From Burkholderia cenocepacia (GTDB lineage Bacteria > Pseudomonadota > Gammaproteobacteria > Burkholderiales > Burkholderiaceae), in the NCBI RefSeq assembly GCF_900446215.1, contig NZ_UAQZ01000015.1, positions 186,001 through 250,000 on the forward strand: DNA of 64,000 nucleotides, written 5' to 3'. Each line of letters opens with the position of its first letter. Position 1 is the first letter of the stretch. The position numbers and the translations under genes are program-made. A model generated the notes under the pieces. It worked only from the letters and a program-made list of their open reading frames with translations. It was not told where the DNA came from and did no database searches. Shown here piece by piece: positions 5,893 to 49,695 of this stretch.

Positions 5893-7716
5893 ATGACCCT
5901 GCCCTCGAAGCTGCTTCAGAAGCGCCCCGCCGCCGTGCGCGGCGCGCGCGCCTTCCCGGTCCGCCGTGCACTCGGTGCCGCGCTGTTTGCCGCCTGGACC
6001 CTCACCGCCTTTCCGGCCCACGCGCAGGATCCGGCCTCGGACGACGCGGAGCCGCAGGGTGCGTTCGAGCATGTGATGCCGGACGAGCAGAAAAATCTCC
6101 CCGCTGTGCCGCTGACGAGCCAGATCGTCTATCAGGTGCTCGCCGCCGAGGTCGCGCTTCAGCGCAACCAGCCGGCGCCGGCCTACCAGACCTACCTCGC
6201 GCTGGCCCGCGACACGCGCGACCCGCGCATGGCGCAGCGCGCGACCGAAATCGCGCTCGGCGCGCAGAGCCCGGCCGACGCGCTGTCCGCCGCGAATCTG
6301 TGGCGCCAGTACGCACCGGATTCGAACCGGGCATCGCAGGTCGACGCCGCGCTGCTGGTGCTCGCCGGCAAGCCGGCCGATGCGCAGCCGATGCTCGCGC
6401 GCGAGCTGGCCCGCGCGACCGGCGACACGCGCGGTCCGGCGATCCTCGCACTGCAGGCGCTGCTGGTACGCGGCCCCGACCGCGTCGGCGGCCTCGCGGT
6501 GCTGAAGGACATGCTGAAGAACGACATGAATCGCCCCGAGGCGCAGCTCGCGATCGCGCGGCAGCAGCTCGCGGTCGACGACAAGGACGGCGCCGCGCAA
6601 TCGCTGAAGCAGGCGCTGCAGATCCGCCCCGACTACCTGCCGGCGGCGCTGATGCTGTCGCAGATGGGGCCGGCGGAACGCGCGGCGGGCATCGCGTCGT
6701 TCGAGAAATATGTTCAGCAGAATCCGAAGTCCCGCGACGCGCGGCTCGCACTGTCGCAGCTCTATCTCGCCGACGACCGCCTCGATGACGCGCAGAAGCA
6801 GTTCGAGACGATGCGCAAGCTCGACTCGAAGGATCCGACGCCGCTGATGGCGCTCGCGCTGATCAAGATCCAGCAGAAGAAACTCGACGAGGCGACCGGC
6901 TACCTGAAGCAGTACGTCCAGCTCGGCGACAAGCAGCCGAACCTCGACGTCGGCCAAGGCTACATCTACCTCGCGCAGATCGCGATCGACCAGAACAACG
7001 ACGCGCAGGCGTCGCAATGGCTCGACAAGGTCGACCAGACGAGCCAGCACTACCTGCCCGCGCAGATCACGCGCGCACAGCTGCTGCAGAAACAGGGCAA
7101 GACCGACGAGGCGCGCAAGGTGCTCGACAACCTGCCGATCACGGATCCGCGCGACGCGGCCGTGGTGGCGCGCACCGATGCGTCGATCCTGTTCACCGCG
7201 AAGCGCTATCCGGAAGCGGAGGCGCGGCTCGGGCAGGCCGTCCAGGACTTCCCGGACGATCCCGACCTGCGCTACGACTACGCGATGGCGGCCGAAAAGA
7301 CCGGCCACTACGCGACGATGGAAAAGCAGTTGCGCGAACTGATCCGCACGCAGCCCGACAACCCGCAGGCCTACAACGCGCTCGGCTATTCGCTCGCCGA
7401 TCGCAACCAGCGCCTGCCCGAGGCCAGCAAGCTGATCGACAAGGCGATGGCGCTCGCGCCGAACGACGCGTACATCATGGACAGCCTCGGCTGGGTGAAG
7501 TACCGGATGGGCGACACGGCCGGCGCGACGAAAGTGCTGCAACGCGCGTACGAATTGCAGCCGAACGCCGAAATCGGCGCGCATCTCGGCGAAGTGCTGT
7601 GGAAGAGCGGCGCGCAGGACGACGCGCGCAACGCGTGGCGCGCCGCGCAGAAGCTCGAGCCCGACAATGAAACGCTCGTGCAGACGCTGAAACGCCTGCA
7701 GATCAACGGCCTCTGA
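5893..7716 (+). CDS. Exported tetratricopeptide repeat protein
   Basis: The 607-residue protein begins with a long signal peptide (basic start, hydrophobic core, FPAHAQ cleavage region near residue 45). Many TPR-type helical pairs fill the rest; late ones read LGYSLADRNQRLPEAS and LGWVKYRMGDTAGATKVL. TPR arrays bind proteins, so a periplasmic or outer-membrane-associated assembly role is likely; the exact function is unknown. The ATG of lolB overlaps its TGA, implying translational coupling with lipoprotein localisation. A -10-like TACAAT at 5862-5867 lies just upstream. Confidence 0.85.
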   Translation: MTLPSKLLQKRPAAVRGARAFPVRRALGAALFAAWTLTAFPAHAQDPASDDAEPQGAFEHVMPDEQKNLPAVPLTSQIVYQVLAAEVALQRNQPAPAYQTYLALARDTRDPRMAQRATEIALGAQSPADALSAANLWRQYAPDSNRASQVDAALLVLAGKPADAQPMLARELARATGDTRGPAILALQALLVRGPDRVGGLAVLKDMLKNDMNRPEAQLAIARQQLAVDDKDGAAQSLKQALQIRPDYLPAALMLSQMGPAERAAGIASFEKYVQQNPKSRDARLALSQLYLADDRLDDAQKQFETMRKLDSKDPTPLMALALIKIQQKKLDEATGYLKQYVQLGDKQPNLDVGQGYIYLAQIAIDQNNDAQASQWLDKVDQTSQHYLPAQITRAQLLQKQGKTDEARKVLDNLPITDPRDAAVVARTDASILFTAKRYPEAEARLGQAVQDFPDDPDLRYDYAMAAEKTGHYATMEKQLRELIRTQPDNPQAYNALGYSLADRNQRLPEASKLIDKAMALAPNDAYIMDSLGWVKYRMGDTAGATKVLQRAYELQPNAEIGAHLGEVLWKSGAQDDARNAWRAAQKLEPDNETLVQTLKRLQINGL

Positions 7717-8336
7717 TGCGGATGTTCCCGATGTTTTCCCTGTCCTTCCGCACGCAGCGCACGCTGGCCGCGGCCGGCGCGGCGCTCGCGCTCGCCGGCT
7801 GCGCGAGCACGCCGCCGCCGGCCGGCACGTCGACGGGCGCCGCACTGCAGACGGCCGCGACGCATGCGTACCATGGCCGCTTCGCGGTGCGGTACGACGA
7901 TCGGCTCGGCAACCCGCAGAACGTGTACGGCAACTTCGACTGGCAGGAGCACGGCGACGACGTGTCGCTCGAGCTGCGCAGCCCGCTCGGCCAGACGCTC
8001 GCGGTCGTGAAATCGACGCCGCGCGCGGCGTCGCTCGAATTGCCGAACCGTCCGACCCAATATGCGCCCGACGTCGGCGACCTGATGCAGAAAACGCTCG
8101 GCTTCGAGCTGCCGCTCGCGGGCCTGCGCTACTGGCTGCTGCCGACCGTTGCCCCCGCGACGCCGGCGGAAACCGTGCGCGACCCGGCCGACGGCACGCG
8201 CGTCAAGCAGATCCGTCAGGACGGCTGGACGATCGACTACCTTGCCTACGCGGATGCCCCGGCCACGGGCGTCAAACGCGTCAACCTCGTGCGCGCGACG
8301 CCGCCGCTCGACATCAAGCTCGTGCTCGATCAGTGA
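7716..8336 (+). CDS. lolB: Outer-membrane lipoprotein LolB
   Basis: The 206-residue protein receives lipoproteins from the periplasmic carrier LolA and inserts them in the outer membrane. The N-terminal signal ends in a lipobox ALALAGC, so it is itself lipid-anchored. The body (YHGRFAVRYDD, VYGNFDWQEHGDDVSLELRSPLGQ) fits the LolB fold. It overlaps the TPR gene (TGATG) and is followed 27 bp later by ispE, the usual lolB-ispE order in proteobacteria. A second ATG at 7731 is possible. Confidence 0.92.
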   Translation: MRMFPMFSLSFRTQRTLAAAGAALALAGCASTPPPAGTSTGAALQTAATHAYHGRFAVRYDDRLGNPQNVYGNFDWQEHGDDVSLELRSPLGQTLAVVKSTPRAASLELPNRPTQYAPDVGDLMQKTLGFELPLAGLRYWLLPTVAPATPAETVRDPADGTRVKQIRQDGWTIDYLAYADAPATGVKRVNLVRATPPLDIKLVLDQ

Positions 8337-36890: not shown

Positions 36891-37802
36891 CTACCCGGCC
36901 GTCTTTCTCCACGACCGGAACAGCTCCAGCAGCGCGCGGCACGGCGTCGACGTCGCGCCGCCCCGCCGCCACACCGCGCCGACGTCCATCGTCGGCACCG
37001 TCACGCTGAGATTGCGACGGCTGATCCGGTTGCCTTCCAGCGACCACGGCCGATAGACGAGATCCGAGAGGATCGTCACCCCGTGCCCGAGCGCGACGAG
37101 GCTTCTCACCGCTTCGATCGACTTGCTCTGCATCCAGACGTTCGGCGCGATGCCGTAGCTGCCCCAGTACTTGCCGACGGTGCGCAGGTGCTCGTCCATG
37201 TCGAGCAGCAGATAGTTCTCGCGCGCGACGTCCTCGAGGGTCACGCGATGGGCGTCCTGCAGTGGATGCGCCGGATGGGTCCACAGCCGGCGCGGCGAGC
37301 GCAGAATCGTCTCGTATTTGAGGTCGGCGACTTCCGCGGTATTCGACACCAGCAGCAGCGCGATATCGAGGCGATCGTCGACCAGCATCGTCTCGATCGC
37401 TTCGCGTTCGCTTTCGACGATGCTCACGCCGAGGTTGCCGAAGCGCCGGGAAATGGCGGACATCAGCGCCGGCATCAGATACGCCGAGATGGTTTCGGTC
37501 ATCCCGATCCGGACATGTCCGGAGATCTGCTCCGGCTCCTCCTGCGCGGCCGCGACCGCGCGATCGATCGACGTCGTCGCGTGCTGCACGTGACGCAGGA
37601 ACCGCTCGCCGGCCGGGGTCAGGCGCACGCCTTTCGGATGACGCAGCAGCAGCGTGACGCCGACCGCCTCCTCGAGGTTCTTCAACGCGATCGTCATCGA
37701 CGATTGCGACACCGAACAGAGATTGGCCGACTTCGAAATCTGCCCCGTGTCGGCAACCGACACGAAGTATTCGATCTGGCGCAGGGTGATGTGCGTGTTC
37801 AC
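36891..37802 (-). CDS. LysR-family transcriptional regulator
   Basis: The 303-residue protein has a standard N-terminal helix-turn-helix (LRQIEYFVSVADTGQISKSANLCSVSQSSMTIALKNLEEAVG) and a periplasmic-binding-like effector domain starting near residue 92 (GHVRIGMTETISAYLMPAL). It is divergent from the molybdopterin oxidoreductase operon with a 183-bp shared region containing a LysR-type palindrome, so it most likely controls that operon in response to its substrate. The effector is unknown. Confidence 0.9.
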   Translation of the reverse strand: MNTHITLRQIEYFVSVADTGQISKSANLCSVSQSSMTIALKNLEEAVGVTLLLRHPKGVRLTPAGERFLRHVQHATTSIDRAVAAAQEEPEQISGHVRIGMTETISAYLMPALMSAISRRFGNLGVSIVESEREAIETMLVDDRLDIALLLVSNTAEVADLKYETILRSPRRLWTHPAHPLQDAHRVTLEDVARENYLLLDMDEHLRTVGKYWGSYGIAPNVWMQSKSIEAVRSLVALGHGVTILSDLVYRPWSLEGNRISRRNLSVTVPTMDVGAVWRRGGATSTPCRALLELFRSWRKTAG

Positions 37803-37884
37803 GGGAAAAGGTCCGGGAAGGCCGGGCAGCTCCGAATCAGCACTGCCTCGAAGGCCCGAACAGTACCGCAGATCGATGGACGCG

Positions 37885-37899
37885 ATATTGATTCAATAT
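37885..37899. promoter_or_regulatory. LysR-type palindrome in the divergent promoter
   Basis: ATATTGA-T-TCAATAT is a perfect seven-base inverted repeat with the T-N11-A pattern of LysR boxes. It lies 101 bp upstream of the oxidoreductase ATG and 83 bp upstream of the lysR start. Confidence 0.7.
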
Positions 37900-37985
37900 A
37901 TACCGGACCATCGAAAGGATGAATTTGTCATGGCCGCCGCGGCTTCCTAGCATAGTCGCAAACATGAAGCGGACGGTGCCAGGCG

Positions 37986-40900
37986 ATGGAGACGCAGGAA
38001 AAGAAGGGCTATTGCACGTTGTGCCGGTCGCGATGCGGCACGATCAACGTCGTGCGTGGCGACATGATGATCAAGGTCCGGCCCGACGATACGCACCCGA
38101 CCGGCCACGCGATGTGCATGAAGGGGAAAGCGGCGCCGGAACTCGTGCATAGCCCGAACCGCGTGCTGTACCCGATGCGGCGCACGCGTCCGAAGGGTGC
38201 CGCCGACCCCGGCTGGCAACGCATCGGCTGGGACGAAGCGCTGGCCGAGATCGCCGGGCGTCTCGCGTATTTCAAGCGGGAAAACGGCGCCGAATCGGTC
38301 GCGTTCGGCGTGACCACGCCCAGCGGCACGCCGATGAGCGACAGCATCGACTGGGTCGAGCGATTCGTCTGGTTGTTCGGGAGCCCGAATATTTGCTACG
38401 CGACCGAGATTTGCAACTGGCACAAGGACAGCGCGCATGCGTTCACGTTCGGCTGCGGCATTCCCGTCGCGGATTACCGGCATGCCGAGCTCATCGTGCT
38501 GTGGGGCAACAACCCCGCCAACACCTGGCTCGCGCAGGCCGACGCGATCGCGAAAAGCCGCCGCAACGGCGCCAGGCTGATCGTCGTCGATCCGCGGCCG
38601 ACCGCGCTCGCGCGGGAGGCCGATCTGTGGCTGCGCGTGCAGCCCGGCACCGACGGCGCGCTCGCGATGGCGATCGCGCGGCAGATGATCGCGACCGGCA
38701 ACGTCGACGACGCATTCGTGCGCGAATGGACCAACGGCCCGTTGCTCGTGCGGGCCGACACCGGGCGGTTCCTGCGCGAGCGGGATCTCGACGGCGAGGC
38801 GTCCGGCAACCGCTACGTGGTCTGGAACGCGACGCTCGAGCGGCTGGAATGCGCCGGCGAGGAATCCGCGACGCGGTCCGCCGACCTGTTGACGACCGGC
38901 GTGCGTCGCGTGGCGATCCGCGATGCGGCCGGCCGCTGCGTGGAGGTGGACTGCACGCCGGCCTTCGACCTCTATGCGAAGGCGCTCGACGCCTATACGC
39001 CGGAACAGGCGGCCGCGCTCACCGGCGTCGCCGCAGCCGACATCGTGAAGGCCGCCGCCATGCTGCGCCCGCACCAGGCGATCGCCTATCACGCATGGTC
39101 GGGCGTCGGCATGCACACCAATGCCACGCAGACCGAGCGCGCCATCGCGACGTTGTATGCGTTGACGGGGGCGTTCGACACGCGCGGCTCGAACCGCGAA
39201 TGGACGAAGCAGCCGGCCAACGCGGTCAGCAGCTACGCGATGCTGAGCCCGCAGCAACGCGCGAAAGCGCTCGGCCTCGCGGAGCGGCCGCTCGGCCCGC
39301 CCGCGCAAGGCTGGGTCACGGCACGCGACGTCTATCGCGCGATCCTCGACGGCGAACCCTACCGCGTGCGCGCGCTGTTCGCGTTCGGCACGAACATGGT
39401 GATGTCGCAGGCGGATGGCGGCCTCGCGCACGAGGCGCTCTGCGCGCTCGACTTTCATGTCCACTGCGATCTCTTCGAGACGCCGTCGTCACGCTATGCG
39501 GACATCCTGCTCCCGGTGAACACGCCGTGGGAACGCGAAGGGCTGCGGCTCGGCTTCGAGATCGACGAGCGCGCGGTCGAACTGGTTCAGTTGCGACAGC
39601 GCATGGTGCCGCCGCGAGGCGAGAGCCGCGCCGACTACGACATCGTCTTCGACCTGGCCGTGCGGCTCGGCATGCAGGACGCATTCTTCGGCGGCAGCAT
39701 CGAGGCCGGCTGGAATCACGTGCTCGAACCGCTCGGGCTGGACGTCGCGTCGCTGCGCGCGCATCCGGAAGGCCTCTACCGGCCGTTGCCGCAACGCGAG
39801 CGGCAATACGCGGCGGCGACGCCCGACGGCGTTCGCGGTTTCAACACGGAGACGCTGCGCGTCGAACTGTATTCCGAGAGGTTGCATCGTCACGGCTATC
39901 CGCCGGTCCCGCAGTACGTGCCGCCGCAGCATGGCGACGATGCGCGCGCGGACAACCGCCGCCGCTTTCCGTGCACGTTGACGTCGATGAAGAACGGGTA
40001 CTACTGCCACAGCCAGCATCGCGGCCTGCCGAGCCTGCGTCGCCGCGCGCCGTACCCGATGGCGGAACTCAACGACGCACTCGCGGCGGAGCACGGCATC
40101 GTCGACGGCGACTGGTGCGTGATCGAAACGACCAACGGCTCGGCGCGCTTCAAGGCGCGCGTCGTCCCGGAACTGGCGCGCAACGTGATCGTGGCCGAGT
40201 ACGGCTGGTGGCAGGCGTGCGACGAGGTCGGCCTCGATGCGCTCGCCGCGGGCGGCCGCGACAACAGCAATTTCAACCAGCTCGTGTCGGCGACACGACT
40301 CGATCCGGTCAGCGGCTCGTCGCCGCTGCGCTCCGTGCGCTGCCGCATCCGGCGCGATCCGTCGGTCGATCCGGCGCGCCGCGCATGGAAAGGGCTGCGC
40401 GATTTCGTCGTGTCCGCGATCCGCGAAGAAGCGAGCGGCGTGCGCACCGTCACGTTTCGGGCCGCGGACGGCGGCGCGCTGCCGGACTATTTGCCCGGTC
40501 AGCACGTGACGCTGCATATCCCGTCGCTCGGCGACGGCGGGACGACACGCGCCTATTCGCTGACGGGCGCCGCGCACGAGGACGATCGCCGCAGTTACGC
40601 GATCTCGGTGCGGCACCAGAAGGGTCAGACGCGCGACGGCGCCGCGTTCGAAGGTGCGATGTCGTCCTACATTCACGGCGTGCTCAAGGTCGGCGACCCG
40701 GTGTTGCTCGGTGCGCCCGGCGGCACGTTCGTCGTGCCGCCGGCATCGCGCCAACCCGTCGTGATGTTCGCGGGCGGCATCGGCATCACGCCGTTCATTT
40801 CGTACCTCGAATCGATTCGTGATCTGGCGGACCGCGCACCGGAATCGCGGCTCTTCTATGCGAACCTGAACAGCAGGACGCACGCGTTCCGCGACCGCAT

Positions 40901-41432
40901 CGAGACGTTGAAGCAGCGCCTGCCGACGCTCGACGTCGTCAATTGCTACAACCAGCCGGGCGACGAGATACCGGGGCGCGACTTTCAGCTGCACGGCTAC
41001 CTGTCGGCCGACGTGGTCGCCGACGACCTGATCCGGCGGCGTGCGCGGTTTTATCTGTGCGGCCCCGAACCGATGATGGAGGCGATCACGGCGGGCCTGA
41101 TCGCGCGCGGCGTCCCGCCCTTCGACATCTTCAAGGAAGCGTTCCGGTCACCGTCCCGGCCGACGCTCGACCCGTCGAAGCGATACGCGGTGCAGTTCAC
41201 GCGGTCGCGCCGCACGGCCACCTGGACACCCGGCGACGGCAGCCTGCTGTCGTTCGCGGAAAGCCTCGGCATCGCGTTGCCGAGCGGTTGCCGGGTCGGA
41301 CAGTGCGAGAGCTGCGCGGTCAAGGTCGTCTCGGGCGAAGTCTCGCATCCGAGCGGACAGGGGCCGGACGAAGCCGACCTGTGCCTCGCCTGCCAGGCCA
41401 TTCCGGCAACCGACATCAGCATCGACGCATAA
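37986..41432 (+). CDS. Molybdopterin oxidoreductase fused to FAD/NAD(P)H-[2Fe-2S] reductase
   Basis: The 1148-residue cytoplasmic protein (no signal peptide) has two enzymes in one chain. Residues 1-800 are a DMSO-reductase superfamily module: [4Fe-4S] ligands Cys10-X2-Cys13-X3-Cys17-X26-Cys44, the MGD domains (VLWGNNPANTW, ARLIVVDPRPTALA) and a C-terminal molydopterin-dinucleotide domain. Cys143 (EICNWHKD) is a candidate Mo/W ligand. Residues about 805-1148 are a ferredoxin-reductase unit: FAD motif TRAYSLTG, nucleotide site MFAGGIGITPF and LCGPEPMM, then a plant-type [2Fe-2S] domain (CRVGQCESC ... C). Substrate unknown. Confidence 0.88.
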   Translation: METQEKKGYCTLCRSRCGTINVVRGDMMIKVRPDDTHPTGHAMCMKGKAAPELVHSPNRVLYPMRRTRPKGAADPGWQRIGWDEALAEIAGRLAYFKRENGAESVAFGVTTPSGTPMSDSIDWVERFVWLFGSPNICYATEICNWHKDSAHAFTFGCGIPVADYRHAELIVLWGNNPANTWLAQADAIAKSRRNGARLIVVDPRPTALAREADLWLRVQPGTDGALAMAIARQMIATGNVDDAFVREWTNGPLLVRADTGRFLRERDLDGEASGNRYVVWNATLERLECAGEESATRSADLLTTGVRRVAIRDAAGRCVEVDCTPAFDLYAKALDAYTPEQAAALTGVAAADIVKAAAMLRPHQAIAYHAWSGVGMHTNATQTERAIATLYALTGAFDTRGSNREWTKQPANAVSSYAMLSPQQRAKALGLAERPLGPPAQGWVTARDVYRAILDGEPYRVRALFAFGTNMVMSQADGGLAHEALCALDFHVHCDLFETPSSRYADILLPVNTPWEREGLRLGFEIDERAVELVQLRQRMVPPRGESRADYDIVFDLAVRLGMQDAFFGGSIEAGWNHVLEPLGLDVASLRAHPEGLYRPLPQRERQYAAATPDGVRGFNTETLRVELYSERLHRHGYPPVPQYVPPQHGDDARADNRRRFPCTLTSMKNGYYCHSQHRGLPSLRRRAPYPMAELNDALAAEHGIVDGDWCVIETTNGSARFKARVVPELARNVIVAEYGWWQACDEVGLDALAAGGRDNSNFNQLVSATRLDPVSGSSPLRSVRCRIRRDPSVDPARRAWKGLRDFVVSAIREEASGVRTVTFRAADGGALPDYLPGQHVTLHIPSLGDGGTTRAYSLTGAAHEDDRRSYAISVRHQKGQTRDGAAFEGAMSSYIHGVLKVGDPVLLGAPGGTFVVPPASRQPVVMFAGGIGITPFISYLESIRDLADRAPESRLFYANLNSRTHAFRDRIETLKQRLPTLDVVNCYNQPGDEIPGRDFQLHGYLSADVVADDLIRRRARFYLCGPEPMMEAITAGLIARGVPPFDIFKEAFRSPSRPTLDPSKRYAVQFTRSRRTATWTPGDGSLLSFAESLGIALPSGCRVGQCESCAVKVVSGEVSHPSGQGPDEADLCLACQAIPATDISIDA

Positions 41433-41456
41433 ACCCCATTCGAGGAAAGGTTCACC

Positions 41457-42392
41457 ATGAAACATTTCGACGCCGTCGCGACCCGCGACGCGCTGGATTT
41501 CGAATCGCTGGTCGCCCGCCTGCGGCAAGCGTTCGTCGACGGCTGCCACGTGCCGCTGCGACATTCGCACGTCGTCAATGCCGGCAGCACGGACGAAGGC
41601 ACGGTACTCGTCATGCCCGCGTGGCAGGACCACGGCTATCTGGGCATCAAGACGGTCAACATCTTCCCCGGCAATGCGGAACACGGCCTGCCCGGCTTGC
41701 ATTCGACCTACGTGCTCTACGACGGGCGGACGGGTCGCCCGCTCGCGCAACTGGACGGCAACGAAATCACGTCGCGCCGCACCGCGGCGGCGTCGGCGCT
41801 GGCCGCCACCTACCTGGCCCGGCCGGACGCATCGCGCATCGTGCTGCTGGGCGCCGGCCGGGTCGGCAGCCTCGTGCCGCTCGCGTATCGCAGCCAGTTG
41901 CCGATCTCGCACGTCGAGGTCTGGGACAAGGACCCCGCAGCGGTGGCGCGCCTGGTCGACCGGCTGACCCGCGACGGTTTCGACGCGGCGCCCGTCACGC
42001 ATCTCGAGGACAGCGTCCGGCGCGCCGACGTCGTCGCCTGCGCGACGCTCGCGACGGAGCCGATCGTCCGCGGCGAGTGGCTCGCACCGGGCTCGCATCT
42101 GGACCTGATCGGCAGCTTCACGCCGCGCATGCGCGAAGCGGACGACGACTGCTTCCGGCACGCGGAGATTTACGTCGACACGGACGAGGCCGCGCAAAAG
42201 TCCGGCGACCTGCTGGGTCCGCTGGCGCGCAACGTCATTGCGCCCGACCACCTGGGTCGGACGCTGACGGCGCTGTGCCGGGGCGACGCGCGGGGCCGGA
42301 CGAACGACCTGCAACGCACCGTGTTCAAGGCCGTCGGCACCGCGCTGGAGGATCTGGCCGCGGCCATTCAAATCCATGAAAAAACGAATTGA
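41457..42392 (+). CDS. Ornithine cyclodeaminase/mu-crystallin family protein
   Basis: The 311-residue NAD(P)-binding protein fits the family, whose members include ornithine cyclodeaminase, pyrroline-2-carboxylate reductase and N-alkylamino acid or alanine dehydrogenases. The N-terminal part has VMPAWQDHGYLGIKTVNIFPGN and the Rossmann motif is VLLGAGRVGSLVPLAYRS. LDLIGSFTPRMREADDDC matches the substrate side. Which reaction is catalysed cannot be read from the sequence. It follows the fusion enzyme by 24 bp with GAGGAAAGG as ribosome site, and its end nearly reaches the transporter start. Confidence 0.85.
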   Translation: MKHFDAVATRDALDFESLVARLRQAFVDGCHVPLRHSHVVNAGSTDEGTVLVMPAWQDHGYLGIKTVNIFPGNAEHGLPGLHSTYVLYDGRTGRPLAQLDGNEITSRRTAAASALAATYLARPDASRIVLLGAGRVGSLVPLAYRSQLPISHVEVWDKDPAAVARLVDRLTRDGFDAAPVTHLEDSVRRADVVACATLATEPIVRGEWLAPGSHLDLIGSFTPRMREADDDCFRHAEIYVDTDEAAQKSGDLLGPLARNVIAPDHLGRTLTALCRGDARGRTNDLQRTVFKAVGTALEDLAAAIQIHEKTN

Positions 42393-42417
42393 ACCCGTGA
42401 CGGGCAAGGAGATCGAG

Positions 42418-43869
42418 ATGAAAGAGCTGATGGACGTGCAGCGCGGCGACGCGCCGGCGGCGGACCGCGAACGCGTGCTGGAACGGATGGCCGCGGGCAT
42501 GGCGCGCTGGTCGGAGAAGTGGTTTCCGGACGCCTATATCTTCGCCGCGCTCGCGGTGATCATCGTGGCGGCGGGCGCGCTGGCGGCCGGGGCGCCGGTC
42601 GCGCGGATCGGCGTGGCGTTCGGCGACGGCTTCTGGAGCCTCATCCCGTTCACGATGCAGATGGCGATCGTCGCGATCTCGGGTTATGTCGTCGCGGTGT
42701 CGCCGCCCGCGTCGAGGCTCATCGATGCGCTCGCGCGCGTGCCCGCGTCCGGGCGCGCCGCGGTGACGTTCGTCGCGCTCGTCAGCATCGTCGCGTCGTT
42801 GTTCAACTGGGCGATCAGCCTGATCTTCAGCGGCCTGCTGGTGCGTGCGCTCGCGCGCCGCGCCGATCTGCGGATGGATTACCGCGCGGCCGGCGCGGCC
42901 GCTTATCTCGGCATGGGTGCGACGTGGGCGCTGGGTTTGAGTTCATCCGCGTCGCAATTGCAGGCGAATCCGGACAGCCTGCCCAAGGCGCTGCTCGCGA
43001 TCTCCGGCGTCATCCCGTTCACCGAGACGATCTTTCTCCCGCAGTCGATGCTGATGGCCGCGGTGCTGACCGTCGCGTCGCTGCTGATCGCGTATCTGTC
43101 CGCGCCGAACGACGCGCGGGCGAAGACCGCGACGGAACTCGGCATTGCGCTCGACGAGAGCCATGCCGCGCTCGCCCGCCCCAGCCGCCCGGGCGACTGG
43201 CTCGAATACAGTCCGCTCGTCACCATCGTGATCGTGGCGATCGGTGCGATCTGGGCGTGGCACGAGTTCACGACGAAAAATCCGCTGATCGCGATCTCGA
43301 ACCTGAACACGTACAACTTCCTGTTCCTGCTGCTGGGCATGCTGCTCAACTGGCGACCGCGGCGCTTCCTCAATGCCGTCGCGCGTTCGGTGCCGTCGGT
43401 CGCGGGCGTGCTGATCCAGTTTCCGCTGTACGGCGGGATCGCGTACATCCTGACCAAGGCGGCCGCGCCCACCGGACTGCCGCTGTCCGATCACCTCGCC
43501 CACTTCTTCGTCGCGCTGTCGTCGCATGCGTCGTTCCCCGCGGTGATGGGCGTGTATTCGGCCGTGCTCGGGTTCTTCGTGCCGTCCGGCGGCGGCAAGT
43601 GGATCATCGAGGCGCCGTACGTGATCGAGGCGGCCAAACTGCTGCAGGTTCATCTGGGCTGGGCCGTGACGGTCTACAACGCGGCCGAGGCATTGCCGAA
43701 CCTGATCAATCCGTTCTGGATGCTGCCGCTGCTCGGCGTGCTCGGGTTGCGTGCCCGCGACATCGTCGGCTTCACGTTCACGCAACTGGTCGTTCACCTG
43801 CCGCTCGTGATCTTCATGCTGTGGGCGCTCGCGAGCACACTCACCTACCATCCGCCCGTCATGCCGTGA
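42418..43869 (+). CDS. AtoE-family short-chain fatty acid transporter
   Basis: The 483-residue membrane protein has about a dozen hydrophobic segments and the AtoE pattern: WSEKWFPDAYIFAALAVIIV, FNWAISLIFSGLLVRALARR, GATWALGLSSSASQLQAN, PSGGGKWIIEAPYV. The family carries short-chain fatty acids such as acetoacetate and butyrate. I chose ATG 42418 behind AAGGAGATCGAG; a frame from ATG 42376 overlaps the previous gene and lacks such a site. Its presence suggests that the operon handles a small carboxylate. Confidence 0.88.
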   Translation: MKELMDVQRGDAPAADRERVLERMAAGMARWSEKWFPDAYIFAALAVIIVAAGALAAGAPVARIGVAFGDGFWSLIPFTMQMAIVAISGYVVAVSPPASRLIDALARVPASGRAAVTFVALVSIVASLFNWAISLIFSGLLVRALARRADLRMDYRAAGAAAYLGMGATWALGLSSSASQLQANPDSLPKALLAISGVIPFTETIFLPQSMLMAAVLTVASLLIAYLSAPNDARAKTATELGIALDESHAALARPSRPGDWLEYSPLVTIVIVAIGAIWAWHEFTTKNPLIAISNLNTYNFLFLLLGMLLNWRPRRFLNAVARSVPSVAGVLIQFPLYGGIAYILTKAAAPTGLPLSDHLAHFFVALSSHASFPAVMGVYSAVLGFFVPSGGGKWIIEAPYVIEAAKLLQVHLGWAVTVYNAAEALPNLINPFWMLPLLGVLGLRARDIVGFTFTQLVVHLPLVIFMLWALASTLTYHPPVMP

Positions 43870-43994: not shown

Positions 43995-45002
43995 TCATTT
44001 GGTTCGAAAATGCTGGCGATAAGCCGCCGGCGACATGCCGACGACATTTTGAAACGCCTTCCGAAACGAAATCACATCGTCATATCCCAATTCCTTCGCA
44101 ACGAGCGCGATCGGCCGGTTACCCAATCGAAGCGCATCCTTCGCCTTCGTCATTCTCACCTGCCTTACATAGTTCGCGGGATTCAATCCCGTTGCCTTTT
44201 GAAATCGCCGAATGAATGTCCTTTCCGTGAGACAAGAAATTCCGGCAAGACTGGCTATGGTGTGATTGATACCCGGCGTTGAAAGGATGAGATGTTGAGC
44301 CTCCAATATCGCATCGTCGTCGTGATCGAGTCTTGGAAGGAATCCTTCTAGCGGCCGCTGGTCGTCACGCACCCCTTCGCTGAGCATGAAACGCGATGTG
44401 GCCAGCATGACATTTGCGCCCATGACGCGATCGACGATCAAGAAACCAAGATCATTCCATGCAAGGATGGCGCCGGCCGTAATGACATCCCCATCATCGA
44501 GCACGATGTTCTCGCTCGCGACGTGAGCGTCGGGGCAGGTACGGGAAAGGAGTTCCGCAAATGCCCAGTGCGTGGTGATCCGCCGTCGCGCCAACAGGCC
44601 GGTTTGGGCCAGCACGAACGCGCCTGCGCAGATGGAGCAGACGATTACGCCGCGCCCGTGCAGCTCGGCCAACCAGGCCGCCTCGCGCGGCATGTCCGAC
44701 ATGCGCTCGGGCATCACAACACTCGGCGGGGCGATAGCGAAAGCCGGCTGATGCGCGTCGGCCGGATCGCTGTCCCAACAGCATTCGATACGTCCCGACG
44801 CCGGGTTCAGTTGCCAATGCGTGACGCGGATACGGCAGTGGCGATCGTCCTCGTGCGGATAGGCCGCCCAATCATTGGCGATCCGAAACAGATCGGTCAA
44901 GCAGTGAATCGCGGCGATTTGACAGTCTGGATAGACCAGGAGTGCAACCTCGACAACTTTGTCAGTTTTGGACCTTAACAATGTCAACCTCGTCAGTTTC
45001 AA
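43995..45002 (-). CDS. GlxA-type AraC-family regulator
   Basis: The 335-residue protein has an N-terminal DJ-1/PfpI-like domain (VALLVYPDCQIAAIHCLTDLFRIA; ICSICAGAFVLAQTGLL with the nucleophile-elbow cysteine) and a C-terminal AraC helix-turn-helix pair (LTERTFIRRFQKATGLNPANYVRQVRMTKA). The gene is less GC-rich than neighbours. It is divergent from the chloroperoxidase-like gene and may control it. The start is uncertain because valine codons near residue 16 could also serve. Confidence 0.85.
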   Translation of the reverse strand: MKLTRLTLLRSKTDKVVEVALLVYPDCQIAAIHCLTDLFRIANDWAAYPHEDDRHCRIRVTHWQLNPASGRIECCWDSDPADAHQPAFAIAPPSVVMPERMSDMPREAAWLAELHGRGVIVCSICAGAFVLAQTGLLARRRITTHWAFAELLSRTCPDAHVASENIVLDDGDVITAGAILAWNDLGFLIVDRVMGANVMLATSRFMLSEGVRDDQRPLEGFLPRLDHDDDAILEAQHLILSTPGINHTIASLAGISCLTERTFIRRFQKATGLNPANYVRQVRMTKAKDALRLGNRPIALVAKELGYDDVISFRKAFQNVVGMSPAAYRQHFRTK

Positions 45003-45188
45003 TATATCTGCATCCGCCTACAATGGGTCTGCGCAAACCAGCATTACTAAGGAGCAGAGCGAAGTTGATATCCAATCCCTTCCGGCATTATCAACATATT
45101 AGCCAGCAATCGCGTTGACGTCTTGCAGATATCTGTCGAACCAGAAGATGAATTGTCTCGATCACCAGATAATCAGAAGAATATAGCA

Positions 45189-46196
45189 ATGGAAAAAATT
45201 TGCGATTCGAACCCTCAAGGCGGCGACGACGTTGATGTGCGACGTCGTCAATTACTCCTCGGCGGCGTCATTGCCGCGACCACGGGTTACTTGGCTTTAC
45301 CCGCTCGAGCAGCATCCAGCAATCCTCTCTCTTCACCACAAGGCAATACGCAAGGAGTTCAGCACATGGGTACCGTTACCACCAAAGATGGCGTCGAGAT
45401 CTTCTACAAGGACTGGGGTCCGCGCGATGCCAAGGTCATCCATTTCCACCATGGCTGGCCTCTCAGCTCAGATGATTGGGATGCGCAACTGCTGTTCTTT
45501 GTGAACAAGGGCTTTCGCGTCGTCGCGCATGATCGCCGGGGCCACGGTCGTTCCAGCCAGGTTTGGGACGGCCATGACATGGACCATTACGCCGATGATG
45601 CCGCGGCAGTGGTCGAGAAGCTCGGTACCCACGGAGCAATGCACGTTGGCCACTCCACCGGCGGTGGCGAGGTGGTGCGTTATATCGCACGGCATGGCGA
45701 GCGCAATGTGAGCAAAGCCGTCCTGATCAGCTCGGTGCCGCCGCTGATGGTCAAGACCAGCAGCAATCCGAACGGTACGCCGAAGTCCGTCTTCGACGAT
45801 TTCCAGGCACATGTCGCAGCGAACCGGGCGCAGTTCTACCTCGACGTGCCGGCCGGCCCCTTCTACGGCTATAACCGCCCCGGGGCCAAGCCGTCGGAGG
45901 GGGTGATCTACAACTGGTGGCGTCAAGGCATGATGGGCAGTACGAAGGCGCAGTACGACGGCATCGTTGCGTTCTCGCAGACCGATTTCACCAACGATCT
46001 CAAGGGGATCACCATCCCCGTGCTGGTCATTCATGGTGACGATGACCAGGTTGTTCCTTATGCCGATTCCGGCGTGCTGTCCGCCAAGCTGGTCAAGAAC
46101 GGGAAGCTGATTACGTACAAGGGGGCTCCGCACGGCATTCCGACTACCCATGCCGACAAGGTCAACGCCGATCTGCTCGAGTTCTTGCAAAGCTGA
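45189..46196 (+). CDS. Tat-exported chloroperoxidase-like alpha/beta hydrolase
   Basis: The 335-residue protein begins with a twin-arginine type signal (RRRQLLLGGVIAATTGYLALPARA). The remaining domain is a cofactor-free haloperoxidase/esterase: HFHHGWPLSSDDW oxyanion region, nucleophile Ser in GHSTGGG, Asp in HGDDDQVVP and His in GAPHGIPTTH. Such proteins form peracids from carboxylic acids and peroxide but are often esterases in vivo. ATG 45189 was chosen; a TTG 22 codons upstream is possible. GC is below that of flanking core genes, suggesting acquisition with the AraC gene. Confidence 0.85.
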   Translation: MEKICDSNPQGGDDVDVRRRQLLLGGVIAATTGYLALPARAASSNPLSSPQGNTQGVQHMGTVTTKDGVEIFYKDWGPRDAKVIHFHHGWPLSSDDWDAQLLFFVNKGFRVVAHDRRGHGRSSQVWDGHDMDHYADDAAAVVEKLGTHGAMHVGHSTGGGEVVRYIARHGERNVSKAVLISSVPPLMVKTSSNPNGTPKSVFDDFQAHVAANRAQFYLDVPAGPFYGYNRPGAKPSEGVIYNWWRQGMMGSTKAQYDGIVAFSQTDFTNDLKGITIPVLVIHGDDDQVVPYADSGVLSAKLVKNGKLITYKGAPHGIPTTHADKVNADLLEFLQS

Positions 46197-46479: not shown

Positions 46480-49400
46480 TTAGTGGAATTCCCGGCTCGA
46501 CGTGCGCAGGCCGCCGAGCAGCGGCGTCAGATCCTCGAAATGCTGCGCGACGAGGTGCCGCACGTCGCTCACGACCTGCCACACGCCGGACGCCGCGAGC
46601 AGCCGCGAATCGAGTGTTTCGCGGCGCTGCCGCGCGAGCAGCTCGGGCCGGACGATCACGTTCACGCAGCCCGTTTCGTCCTCGAGCGTCATGAACATCA
46701 CGCCCTTCGCGGTGCCCGGCATCTGCCGGGCGATCACGAGCCCGCATGCGCGTGCGAGCCGGCCGTCGGGACGGTCGCGCAACTCGGCCGCCGACGACAG
46801 CCGCTGCGCGCGCAAGGCCGGCCGCAGCAACGCGACCGGATGGCGGTTCAGCGTGAGGCCGGTGGTGTGATAGTCGGCGAGGATGTCGTCGGCTTCCGAC
46901 GGCGCGCCGAGCGCGGGTTGCTCCACCTCGTCGATCGGCGCGGCGGCGAGCAGGTCGCGCTCCGGCGCCGCGGCGACGGCCTGCCACAACGCATCGCGAC
47001 GATGGCCGGCGAGCGTCGCGAGCGCATTCGCGGCGGCGAGCGCCTCGAGATCGCGACGTTCGAGTTGCGCGCGGCGCGCGAGGGTGTCGACGTTGTCGAA
47101 CGGGCCGGCGGCGCGTGCGGCTTCGATGCGCCGCGCGGCGGCTTCGCTCAGGCCGCGCACGAGCGACAGGCCGAGCCGCACGGCCGGCTGACCGTGCGGC
47201 GGCGGCTGGTCGGGCAACGCTTCGAGCGCGGCTTCCCAGGTGCTTTGCGTCACGTCGATCGGCAGCACCTTCACGCGGTGACGCTTCGCGTCCTGCACGA
47301 GTTGCGACGGCGGGTAGAACCCCATCGGCTGGCTGTTCAGCAGCGCGGCGAGAAAGATCGCGGGTTCGTGGCATTTGAGCCAGCTGCTCGCGTACGCGAG
47401 TTTCGCGAAGCTCGCGGCGTGGCTTTCGGGGAACCCGTATTCGCCGAAGCCTTTGATCTGCTCGAAGATCTGTTCGGCGAATTCGCGTGTGTAGTTGCGT
47501 TCGAGCATGCCGCTGATGATCTTGTCCTGATATTTCTCGAGATTGCCCTTGCGCTTCCACGCGGCCATCGCACGACGCAAGTCATCCGCTTCGCCAGGTG
47601 TAAAACCCGCGGCGACGATCGCAATCTGCATCACCTGTTCCTGGAAGATCGGCACACCCAGCGTACGAACGAGCACTTCCTTGAGCGCGTCGCTCGGATA
47701 CGTGACCTCGCCCTCCTCTTCACCGGCCACGATCCTGCGCCGCTGCAAATACGGATGCACGGCGCCGCCTTGAATCGGACCGGGCCGCACGATCGATACC
47801 TGAACGACGAGATCGTAGTAGTTGCGCGGCTTCAGCCGCGGCAGCATCGACATCTGCGCGCGCGATTCGATCTGGAACACGCCGACGGTATCGGCACGGC
47901 AGATCATGTCGTAGGTTGCCTTGTCATCCTGCGGAATGTGTTTCAGCGTGAATGGCTTGCCGTCCTTCGCTGGCCCGCGCCACGCGGTGCGCAGGTCGAA
48001 CGCGCGATGCAGCGCCGACAGCATGCCGAGCGCGAGCACGTCGACCTTCATCAGCCCGAGCGCTTCGAGATCGTCCTTGTCCCACTGGATCACGCGCCGC
48101 CCGTCCATCGCCGCGTTCTCGACCGGCACGAGCCGCGTGAGCTTGCCGCGGCTGATCGCGAAGCCGCCCGAATGCTGCGACAGGTGGCGCGGGAAGTTGA
48201 GCAAGCGCCCGGCCAGTTCGGCCCATGTGCGAATCAGCGGCGTTTCGGGATCGAGCCCGGTCGACGCGAATTGCCGCAGCAGATCGCGACTGCCGTCGAA
48301 CCAGCGATGCCCCTTTGCGACGCGATCGACCAGCATCGGATCGACGCCGAGCGCCTTGCCGGTTTCGCGCAGCACGCCGCGCGGACGATACGTCGAAACG
48401 GCAGCCGCGAGCGCGGCGCGATCCTTGCCGTATTTTGCGTAGATGTGCTGGATCACTTCTTCGCGGCGCTGATGCTCGAAGTCGACGTCGATATCCGGCG
48501 GCTCGCCGCGTTCCTCGCTGATGAAACGCTCGAACAGCATCGTGCTTTGCTCGGGATTCACTTCGGTGATGCCGAGGCAATAACAGACGACCGAGTTCGC
48601 GGCCGAGCCACGGCCCTGGCACAGGATGTTCTGGCTGCGCGCGTATTTGACGATGTCGTAGACGGTCAGGAAGAACGGCTCGTAGCTCAGCCGGGCGATC
48701 AGGTCGAGTTCATGGCGGATCTGCTTGTCGACCTTCTCCGGGATGCCCTGCGGATAACGCACCGCCGCTCCGGCGAAGGTTTCCTGTTCCAGATAGCGCG
48801 TCGGCGTCAGTCCCGCCGGCACGATCTCGTCGGGATACTCGTAACGCAGCGAGTCGAGTTCGAAATCGCATGCATCGAACATCGCGCACGTCTCCGCGAT
48901 CTCGGCCGACGAAAACAACTTCGCGATCCGCCCGCGCGAACGCAGATGCTGCTCCGCATTCGGCGCGAGCGCGTACCCGCATTCGGAGACCGGCATCCCG
49001 ACGCGAATCGCCGTCATCACGTCCTGCAGCGGCTTGCACGAGCGCACGTGCATCGTCACGTCGCCCAGCGCGACGAGTCGCACGCCGCGCCGTTTGCCGG
49101 CCTCGCGAATCTCGTCGCGCTGCGCGCCGTCCAGCGCGCGCTGCAACTGCACGAGCCCGAGCCGCGCCCGCTCGCCGAACGTCGCGCGAAACCACGCGAC
49201 CTGCGCATCGAGCACGTCCGCCCGCACCGGGTACGTCGGCACGAGAATCGCGAAGCAGTCGGGCATGCCGCGCAAGTGGGCAAACTCCGCCGGCGGCGCC
49301 GACAGCATCCGCGACGTCAGCTGGTAAGTGCCCTTCGGCGATGCCATCCGCCGCCACGAAATCAACTCGGAAAGATTGCCGTACCCTTCGCGGTTCTGCG

Positions 49401-49695
49401 CGAGCAGCACGAGCCCGAACGCACCGGGGCCCGGGTCGTGGCCGGGCGCGACGTCATCCGGCGTGACGTCGAAATACGAACCGATGACGAGCGGCAATCC
49501 GTTCGCCTTCGCCGCGACATGCATGCGCGGCGCGCCGGCGAGCGAGCATTCGTCGGTGATCGCGATCCCGCGATAGCCGAGTTTCACCGCACGCTCGACC
49601 AGTTCGTCCGCATGCGATGCGCCATGCAGGAATGAAAAGTTCGAACGGCAGAACAACTCCGCGTAATCGGGCAGCCCGCTGAAATCCGCCATCAT
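46480..49695 (-). CDS. dnaE2: Error-prone DNA polymerase DnaE2
   Basis: The 1071-residue C-family polymerase belongs to the SOS mutasome, which bypasses DNA lesions. An N-terminal PHP domain (FCRSNFSFLHGASHADELVERA) precedes the polymerase core with the catalytic acidic motif PPDIDVDFEHQRRE. An HhH region and OB-fold end the chain (ARACGLVIARQMPGTAKGVMFMTLEDETG). It lies 6 bp after imuB in imuA-imuB-dnaE2, so it shares the LexA-controlled promoter. Confidence 0.96.
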   Translation of the reverse strand: MMADFSGLPDYAELFCRSNFSFLHGASHADELVERAVKLGYRGIAITDECSLAGAPRMHVAAKANGLPLVIGSYFDVTPDDVAPGHDPGPGAFGLVLLAQNREGYGNLSELISWRRMASPKGTYQLTSRMLSAPPAEFAHLRGMPDCFAILVPTYPVRADVLDAQVAWFRATFGERARLGLVQLQRALDGAQRDEIREAGKRRGVRLVALGDVTMHVRSCKPLQDVMTAIRVGMPVSECGYALAPNAEQHLRSRGRIAKLFSSAEIAETCAMFDACDFELDSLRYEYPDEIVPAGLTPTRYLEQETFAGAAVRYPQGIPEKVDKQIRHELDLIARLSYEPFFLTVYDIVKYARSQNILCQGRGSAANSVVCYCLGITEVNPEQSTMLFERFISEERGEPPDIDVDFEHQRREEVIQHIYAKYGKDRAALAAAVSTYRPRGVLRETGKALGVDPMLVDRVAKGHRWFDGSRDLLRQFASTGLDPETPLIRTWAELAGRLLNFPRHLSQHSGGFAISRGKLTRLVPVENAAMDGRRVIQWDKDDLEALGLMKVDVLALGMLSALHRAFDLRTAWRGPAKDGKPFTLKHIPQDDKATYDMICRADTVGVFQIESRAQMSMLPRLKPRNYYDLVVQVSIVRPGPIQGGAVHPYLQRRRIVAGEEEGEVTYPSDALKEVLVRTLGVPIFQEQVMQIAIVAAGFTPGEADDLRRAMAAWKRKGNLEKYQDKIISGMLERNYTREFAEQIFEQIKGFGEYGFPESHAASFAKLAYASSWLKCHEPAIFLAALLNSQPMGFYPPSQLVQDAKRHRVKVLPIDVTQSTWEAALEALPDQPPPHGQPAVRLGLSLVRGLSEAAARRIEAARAAGPFDNVDTLARRAQLERRDLEALAAANALATLAGHRRDALWQAVAAAPERDLLAAAPIDEVEQPALGAPSEADDILADYHTTGLTLNRHPVALLRPALRAQRLSSAAELRDRPDGRLARACGLVIARQMPGTAKGVMFMTLEDETGCVNVIVRPELLARQRRETLDSRLLAASGVWQVVSDVRHLVAQHFEDLTPLLGGLRTSSREFH

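Follow-up and report, generated by a model that had tools for sequence, protein, structure and literature searches.

An operon built around a molybdenum enzyme–reductase fusion

We analysed a 64,000-nucleotide stretch of contig NZ_UAQZ01000015.1 of Burkholderia cenocepacia (the window; the source genome comprises 8.04 Mb in 18 contigs) and focus here on a four-gene locus at positions 36891–43869. Its central gene encodes an enzyme in which a molybdenum (Mo)-cofactor oxidoreductase and an NAD(P)H reductase are joined in one chain. According to the open reading frame list, the locus consists of a LysR-family regulator (36891–37802, minus strand; Pfam HTH_1 and LysR_substrate) and, divergent from it, three plus-strand genes. 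These encode the 1,148-residue fusion enzyme (37986–41432), a putative ketimine reductase of the ornithine cyclodeaminase (OCD)/mu-crystallin family (41457–42392; Pfam OCD_Mu_crystall) and an AtoE-like transporter (42376–43869; Pfam SCFA_trans, 283 bits against a cut-off of 27). The stop codon of the fusion gene lies 24 bases before the OCD start, and the OCD and transporter frames share 17 bases, suggesting that the three genes are probably co-transcribed.

An earlier note on this DNA had proposed a fusion of a Mo oxidoreductase with a reductase, accompanied by OCD-like and AtoE-type partners, a divergent LysR gene and a clean palindrome, and had rated the whole as its best candidate for an undescribed system. 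The analysis below bears out the fusion, the partners and the LysR-type site. The locus represents a real and widely conserved type of operon, and searches of literature titles and listings found no published description of the fusion, of the operon or of a Mo enzyme that reduces pyrrole-2-carboxylate, the substrate that we propose.

The fusion is a single and widespread protein

We compared the locus with 90 related loci, comprising 80 genome loci (chosen as the best 80 among 477 stretches with a gene for a relative, and thus near relatives by design) and 10 plasmid loci. The fusion lies in a single frame, over 98% or more of its length, at 87 of the 90, including 79 of the 80 nearest genome loci, and we therefore reject a gene-calling error, the artefact that the earlier note had warned of, as the source of the fusion. 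The exceptions are a fragment at a contig end (L093), an interrupted copy (L020) and a copy split into two genes (L027). For the 120 database matches listed, alignment with the query extends over 98% or more of its length in 119 and over 94% in the last, a protein annotated as partial. The nearest orthologues belong to the Burkholderia cepacia group (B. orbicola, 95%; B. seminalis and B. cepacia, 93%), and those of the listed matches that are named carry general names such as 'molybdopterin-dependent oxidoreductase'. Counting matches at E 1e-100 or better, the family numbers 5,449 of the 7,997 database proteins scored.

Within the genus the fusion is an accessory trait, as 9 of 65 genomes carry it (our own included, and one of them with a fragmented copy). 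In the order, 12 of 399 genomes gave a match: the window's fusion, plus 11 unfused proteins whose alignment spans approximately residues 1–800. In the phylum, 5 of 398 genomes gave one, namely our own, three with fusions (at four places) and one with an unfused protein. A quick tree that includes unfused relatives places the fusions in one group (38 rows; SH-aLRT 94, program's own mark 95), with the unfused proteins branching outside it. The unfused relatives L121–L131 and L136 are 762–829 residues long and approximately 44–49% identical to the Mo domain.

Several variants of the gene were also seen. The split version in Variovorax paradoxus VAI-C (L027:7995–11357) comprises a Mo protein and a separate reductase, and adjoins genes for dihydroorotase, dihydroorotate dehydrogenase and orotate phosphoribosyltransferase. 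A solo fusion gene is identical in three gammaproteobacterial loci (L059–L061), and at L061 a MerR gene precedes it. Near-identical solo copies occur in Leclercia (L057) and, close to metal-transport genes, on an Escherichia coli IncHI2A plasmid (L019:8112–11423 as annotated, with the match starting at 8001), where a gene annotated as 'transcriptional regulator' lies upstream. The identity or near-identity of these five copies points to recent transfer. Several Klebsiella plasmids match over residues 244–1148 only.

Architecture and active site of the fusion

Six Pfam domains lie within the single frame of the fusion: Molybdop_Fe4S4, Molybdopterin, Molydop_binding, FAD_binding_6, NAD_binding_1 and Fer2. 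The N terminus is a [4Fe-4S] domain with a CxxCxxxC...C cluster motif (C10, C13, C17 and C44). It forms part of a Mo or tungsten (W) domain at approximately residues 1–790 that is predicted to bind bis-molybdopterin guanine dinucleotide (bis-MGD), with C143 as the presumed metal ligand. An FAD/NAD reductase module (approximately residues 800–1054) and a C-terminal [2Fe-2S] ferredoxin (C1102, C1107, C1110 and C1136) follow. All three Mo-cofactor domains score above their cut-offs, which places the protein in the bis-MGD (dimethyl sulfoxide reductase) superfamily, and the domain content suggests that the cofactor is bis-MGD with either Mo or W. In an alignment of 91 rows, made up of the window and the 90 related loci, C10, C13, C17, C44, Lys46, C143 and the stretch W145-H146-K147-D148 are conserved in 90 rows, the remaining row being a gap; the four ferredoxin cysteines are conserved in 89–90 rows and the RxYS motif of the reductase in 90.

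An AlphaFold model built from 24 sequences (mean pLDDT 87.6) has acetylene hydratase (2e7z) as its best solved fold match (TM 0.86 over the target, 22% identity), and a sequence-profile comparison also ranks this enzyme first among solved structures (E 1.3e-88). Next among the 50 fold matches listed are perchlorate, arsenate, formate, polysulfide and nitrate enzymes, and all of those listed belong to the bis-MGD superfamily. Acetylene hydratase from Pelobacter acetylenicus resembles the fusion in its [4Fe-4S] cysteine pattern and in the aligned Cys ligand, so the likeness to it that had been suggested earlier holds for the fold and the cysteines. It does not extend to the active site, because the catalytic Asp13 of acetylene hydratase aligns with Arg14 (R in 86 rows, K in 3, T in 1, a gap in 1, and never D), and on this basis we reject an acetylene hydratase function. 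Acetylene hydratase also has no attached redox partner, whereas the fusion carries FAD, NAD and [2Fe-2S] domains, is linked to a gene of an imine reductase family and occurs in genera that we take to be aerobes.

The fusion shares its three Mo-cofactor domains, the position of the Cys ligand and the CxxCxxxC...C motif with formate dehydrogenases and with further bis-MGD enzymes that have a Cys ligand (for example 7qv7 and 2vpw), but the catalytic His and Arg of formate dehydrogenase are not kept, and we reject this function too. The residue after C143, a His in formate dehydrogenase, is N144 in 89 of the 91 rows (one T, one gap), and position 408, which aligns with the Arg, varies (the four commonest residues being K in 40 rows, R in 18, G in 13 and Q in 7). 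The fusion scores 230 on the TIGR01591 model, below the cut-off of 666, and its reductase is a single FNR/ferredoxin unit as opposed to the separate subunits of formate dehydrogenases.

The reductase part is similar to flavohaemoglobin (1cqx), PaaE and phthalate dioxygenase reductase (2pia), and shows the flavin–NAD–[2Fe-2S] order of this type, the ferredoxin being at the C terminus as it is in 2pia and PaaE. Modules of this kind deliver electrons from NAD(P)H, and for this reason we read the fusion as a reductase. In the known proteins the module serves an oxygenase or a globin, whereas here it is joined to a Mo enzyme.

Conservation of the operon and its promoter

We scored an OCD-family gene as linked to the fusion if it was at least 28% identical, on the same strand and no more than 3.5 kb away. 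By this measure the OCD gene is present at 55 of the 80 genome loci; a transporter is found at 60 (in 6 of these only 29–38% identical), and 66 keep at least one of the two. The corresponding counts for the 10 plasmid loci are 4 for the OCD gene and 2 for the transporter. Linked loci occur in Alpha-, Beta- and Gammaproteobacteria and also in Streptomyces, Saccharopolyspora and Rhodococcus, among others. Gene order varies: the OCD gene is upstream of the fusion at L050, L068 and L072 and last in Caballeronia, and the transporter comes first in Variovorax and Bordetella trematum. Mapped onto the 91-row tree, OCD presence changes 14 times, against 25.9 times in shuffles, a difference to which near-copies contribute. 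At one of the 90 loci (L069) the operon is adjoined by moaA, which is only suggestive for a Mo cofactor.

Of the 80 genome loci, 51 have a divergently oriented LysR homologue. In the window, the presumed LysR binding site is the perfect palindrome ATATTGATTCAATAT (37885–37899, plus strand), which has T-N11-A inside it. Allowing up to one mismatch, this sequence matches once in the 64 kb window and never in 100 shuffles. Across eight aligned promoters it is exact in five, kept at 14 of 15 bases in one and at 10 of 15 in the two most distant. Downstream of the palindrome is a predicted sigma-70-like promoter, TTGTCA-17-TAGCAT (37925–37953, plus strand). In the region scanned, chance alone would be expected to give 0.8 sites of this type; TAGCAT is conserved in all eight of the aligned promoters and TTGTCA in six.

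Genomic context points to a proline-ring product

The OCD protein scores 436 bits on NF004793 (PRK06141), a model for reductases of delta-1-pyrroline-2-carboxylate (Pyr2C) and piperideine-2-carboxylate with a cut-off of 322. Ten other linked OCD proteins were scanned, of which nine pass NF004793 and the tenth, from Pseudomonas dryadis (L082), passes NF045512. This tenth partner is a distant member of the OCD family, encoded 34 bases after the transporter, and scores 454 bits on NF045512 (LhpI-type Pyr2C/piperideine-2-carboxylate reductase; cut-off 400) as against only 149 on NF004793. A 91% identical copy occupies the same place in P. daroniae (L084). In addition, an OCD related to one of the linked OCDs has aconitase X (cis-3-hydroxyproline dehydratase) in its neighbourhood, and at L071 an aconitase X gene lies approximately 7 kb from the fusion itself. 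The LhpI-type partner and the aconitase X context are stronger evidence for the product than is the NF004793 score.

Aconitase X is reported to produce Pyr2C (PMC5144071), and members of both the OCD and the MLD2 families are reported to reduce Pyr2C to proline (PMC4113996). The name LhpI denotes aconitase X in PMC5144071 and the reductase in NCBIfam NF045512. The step proposed here, Pyr2C to L-proline, is identical to that described for the Pyr2C reductases of trans-3- and cis-3-hydroxyproline catabolism, which come from the OCD and MLD2 families (PMC4113996, PMC5144071). The hydroxyproline routes obtain Pyr2C from a dehydratase, whereas here the proposed source is a Mo or W redox enzyme. With this support from context, the Mo enzyme most likely forms Pyr2C, a cyclic imino acid.

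The neighbourhoods also bear on the fate of the proline. Within 10 kb of the fusion, 3 of the 80 genome loci have a proline dehydrogenase gene: L058 in Zobellella and L068 in Xanthobacter, both with PutA, and L091 in Rhodococcus. One of the 10 plasmid loci (L022) has one within the same distance. Eight chosen genomes, among them the three with a nearby gene, set the background rate at 8 to 11 genes of this kind per 50 Mb. This gives an expectation of 0.27–0.37 in the 1.68 Mb searched and a Poisson chance of 0.003–0.006 for three or more, a result that is supportive only, since the test was prompted by the Rhodococcus locus already seen. Further copies exist elsewhere in some of these genomes (a second copy in Zobellella, two more in R. 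wratislaviensis, none in Xanthobacter), and our own genome has a single proline dehydrogenase gene, located elsewhere. The route most likely ends in L-proline. The 'amino- or imino-type small carboxylate' of the earlier note can thus be sharpened to a probable Pyr2C product and a probable L-proline end.

Transporter and candidate substrate

The transporter has the Pfam domain SCFA_trans in common with the AtoE/TIGR00366 short-chain fatty acid transporters, but it scores 277.8 on TIGR00366, below the curated cut-off of 575.75, and probably belongs to a separate subfamily. Transporter homologues on three plasmids (L117–L119) occur in other contexts and are uninformative. The SCFA_trans family carries simple monocarboxylates rather than zwitterions. 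Combined with the reductase-type domain order, this presumably fits a reductive route for a planar acid. Our best guess for the substrate is pyrrole-2-carboxylate, chosen because it is a stable monocarboxylate, is two electrons more oxidised than Pyr2C and fits the importer.

Two other activities towards pyrrole-2-carboxylate are on record. The prFMN decarboxylase HudA is reported to decarboxylate it (PMC10176493), and a two-component monooxygenase of Rhodococcus acts on it, according to the title of a reference in PMC6165268. These routes decarboxylate or oxygenate the compound, whereas the route proposed here would reduce it to proline. Microbial metabolism of pyrrole-2-carboxylate is called known but poorly understood in a 2026 paper (PMC12899673).

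A proposed reductive route to proline

Our leading interpretation, which we hold at a little below an even chance, is that the locus is an inducible operon for catabolism, through which a small nitrogen-containing ring acid, likely pyrrole-2-carboxylate, is salvaged as proline via Pyr2C. The transporter would import a monocarboxylate, most likely pyrrole-2-carboxylate. The FAD of the fusion would accept hydride from NAD(P)H, and electrons would pass through the [2Fe-2S] and [4Fe-4S] clusters to the Cys-ligated bis-MGD Mo (or W) centre, a direction of flow that we infer. At this centre a two-electron reduction of the ring would yield Pyr2C, which the OCD-family enzyme would convert to L-proline, and the ordinary proline pathway, with its proline dehydrogenase encoded elsewhere in the genome, would then oxidise the L-proline. 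It is plausible, but in our estimate clearly short of probable, that the fusion is a dearomatising pyrrole-2-carboxylate reductase, self-contained and driven by NAD(P)H, which serves a reductive pathway to proline across Proteobacteria and Actinobacteria.

Several observations weigh against this interpretation. On the substrate side, no gene in the neighbourhoods scanned names pyrrole-2-carboxylate, the reduction of a pyrrole ring by NAD(P)H is estimated to be energetically tight, and we know of no bis-MGD enzyme that reduces a pyrrole ring. On the product side, NF004793 is weakly specific: five of five control OCD proteins (L112–L116), none with a fusion annotated beside it, also pass the cut-off, showing that such enzymes serve elsewhere too (the control contexts include peptide, 5-oxoproline, allantoin and aconitase X genes, and others). 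The proline dehydrogenase test carries less weight for having followed from a locus already seen.

The gene linkage, too, has gaps. The OCD, transporter and LysR genes are all missing at 14 of the 80 genome loci and at 5 of the 10 plasmid loci; one of the 14 is L071, the locus with the nearby aconitase X gene. Four fusion loci from three genomes (L132–L135) were drawn regardless of context. One of them, L133, has an OCD gene (45% identical) directly upstream of the fusion; in the stretches fetched, the OCD gene is missing at the other three and the transporter at all four. At L132 and L135, whose fusions are deep-branching, a GFO/IDH/MocA oxidoreductase gene adjoins the fusion (6609–7658 and 6807–7871, respectively). 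These neighbours point to other substrates, and the fusion family may serve several. The unfused relative L136 lies among genes whose products score as an HpaI-like aldolase, a 2-hydroxyacid dehydrogenase and an Ldh_2 protein. We considered this Ldh_2 gene as an MLD2-type substitute for the imine reductase and rejected it, as its aldolase- and dehydrogenase-like neighbours make it probably a member of another pathway.

We searched 13 genomes that lack a local OCD of the PRK06141 type. In seven, another part of the genome encodes a match that reaches E 1e-30 (six at 43–62% identity, one at 36%), and six have none at that threshold, among them the genome of L082, where the LhpI type is local. 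MLD2 proteins are encoded elsewhere in all six genomes tested, without this implying a role in the route. Searches with two Ldh_2 proteins of our own genome found no match in the 90 loci, and the neighbours scanned at loci that lack the OCD gene gave nothing telling. At one locus where the OCD and transporter genes are missing, in Photorhabdus luminescens (L051:13622–14953), a class III aminotransferase gene follows the fusion.

Alternative functions for the fusion

All of the product-side evidence would apply equally if the fusion made Pyr2C, or delta-1-piperideine-2-carboxylate, from another precursor, for example 4-hydroxy-delta-1-pyrroline-2-carboxylate by reductive dehydroxylation, or an N-oxidised ring acid. 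Bis-MGD enzymes that remove hydroxyl groups reductively exist, and both NF004793 and NF045512 name piperideine besides pyrroline substrates. We nevertheless regard such a precursor as unlikely, if still a serious contender, because a transporter family that carries simple monocarboxylates suits it poorly and because hydroxyproline epimerase and oxidase genes were not met among the neighbours scanned, although no systematic search for them was made.

The fusion might instead act on an open-chain acid of the oxime, hydroxyimino or N-oxide type and reduce it to a 2-imino acid, from which the OCD-family enzyme would form an ordinary amino acid. Mo enzymes that reduce N–O bonds are well known, and relatives of the OCD protein include alanine dehydrogenase and iminosuccinate reductase. 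However, the LhpI-type partner at the two Pseudomonas loci, the aconitase X context and the proline dehydrogenase neighbours all indicate a proline ring, making an open-chain substrate improbable.

We also give little credence to an oxidative role, in which electrons from the substrate would be passed to NAD(P)+ as in soluble formate dehydrogenases. Reductase chemistry is reversible in principle and, by sequence, some of the best relatives of the fusion are formate dehydrogenases, but the replacement of their His by Asn144, the variability at K408 and the usual electron-delivering role of the oxygenase-reductase/flavohaemoglobin type of module argue for the reductive direction. A non-redox hydratase, with the reductase merely activating the metal centre, is very improbable despite acetylene hydratase being the best solved relative in both sequence and fold, given the Arg at the Asp13 position, the persistence of the reductase module in the same chain at nearly all related loci and the reductase family of the next gene.

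Genes downstream of the operon

Directly downstream of the transporter, positions 43995–46196 of the window hold a gene for an AraC/DJ-1 (FtrA-like) regulator on the minus strand and one for an alpha/beta hydrolase with an N-terminal extension on the plus strand. Beyond these, a 1,071-residue frame on the minus strand (46480–49695) encodes a protein whose sequence resembles a DnaE2-type DNA polymerase III alpha subunit.

Implications

If the proposed reduction of pyrrole-2-carboxylate is correct, it would be a new reaction for bis-MGD enzymes and would represent dearomatisation of a heteroaromatic ring in aerobes without ATP or separate electron-transfer subunits. It would also identify one fate of pyrrole-2-carboxylate in soil bacteria. 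Even with another substrate, the fusion would be a single-chain enzyme linking NAD(P)H to a Mo centre, and its function could be tested in a one-step assay coupled to the conversion of Pyr2C to proline.

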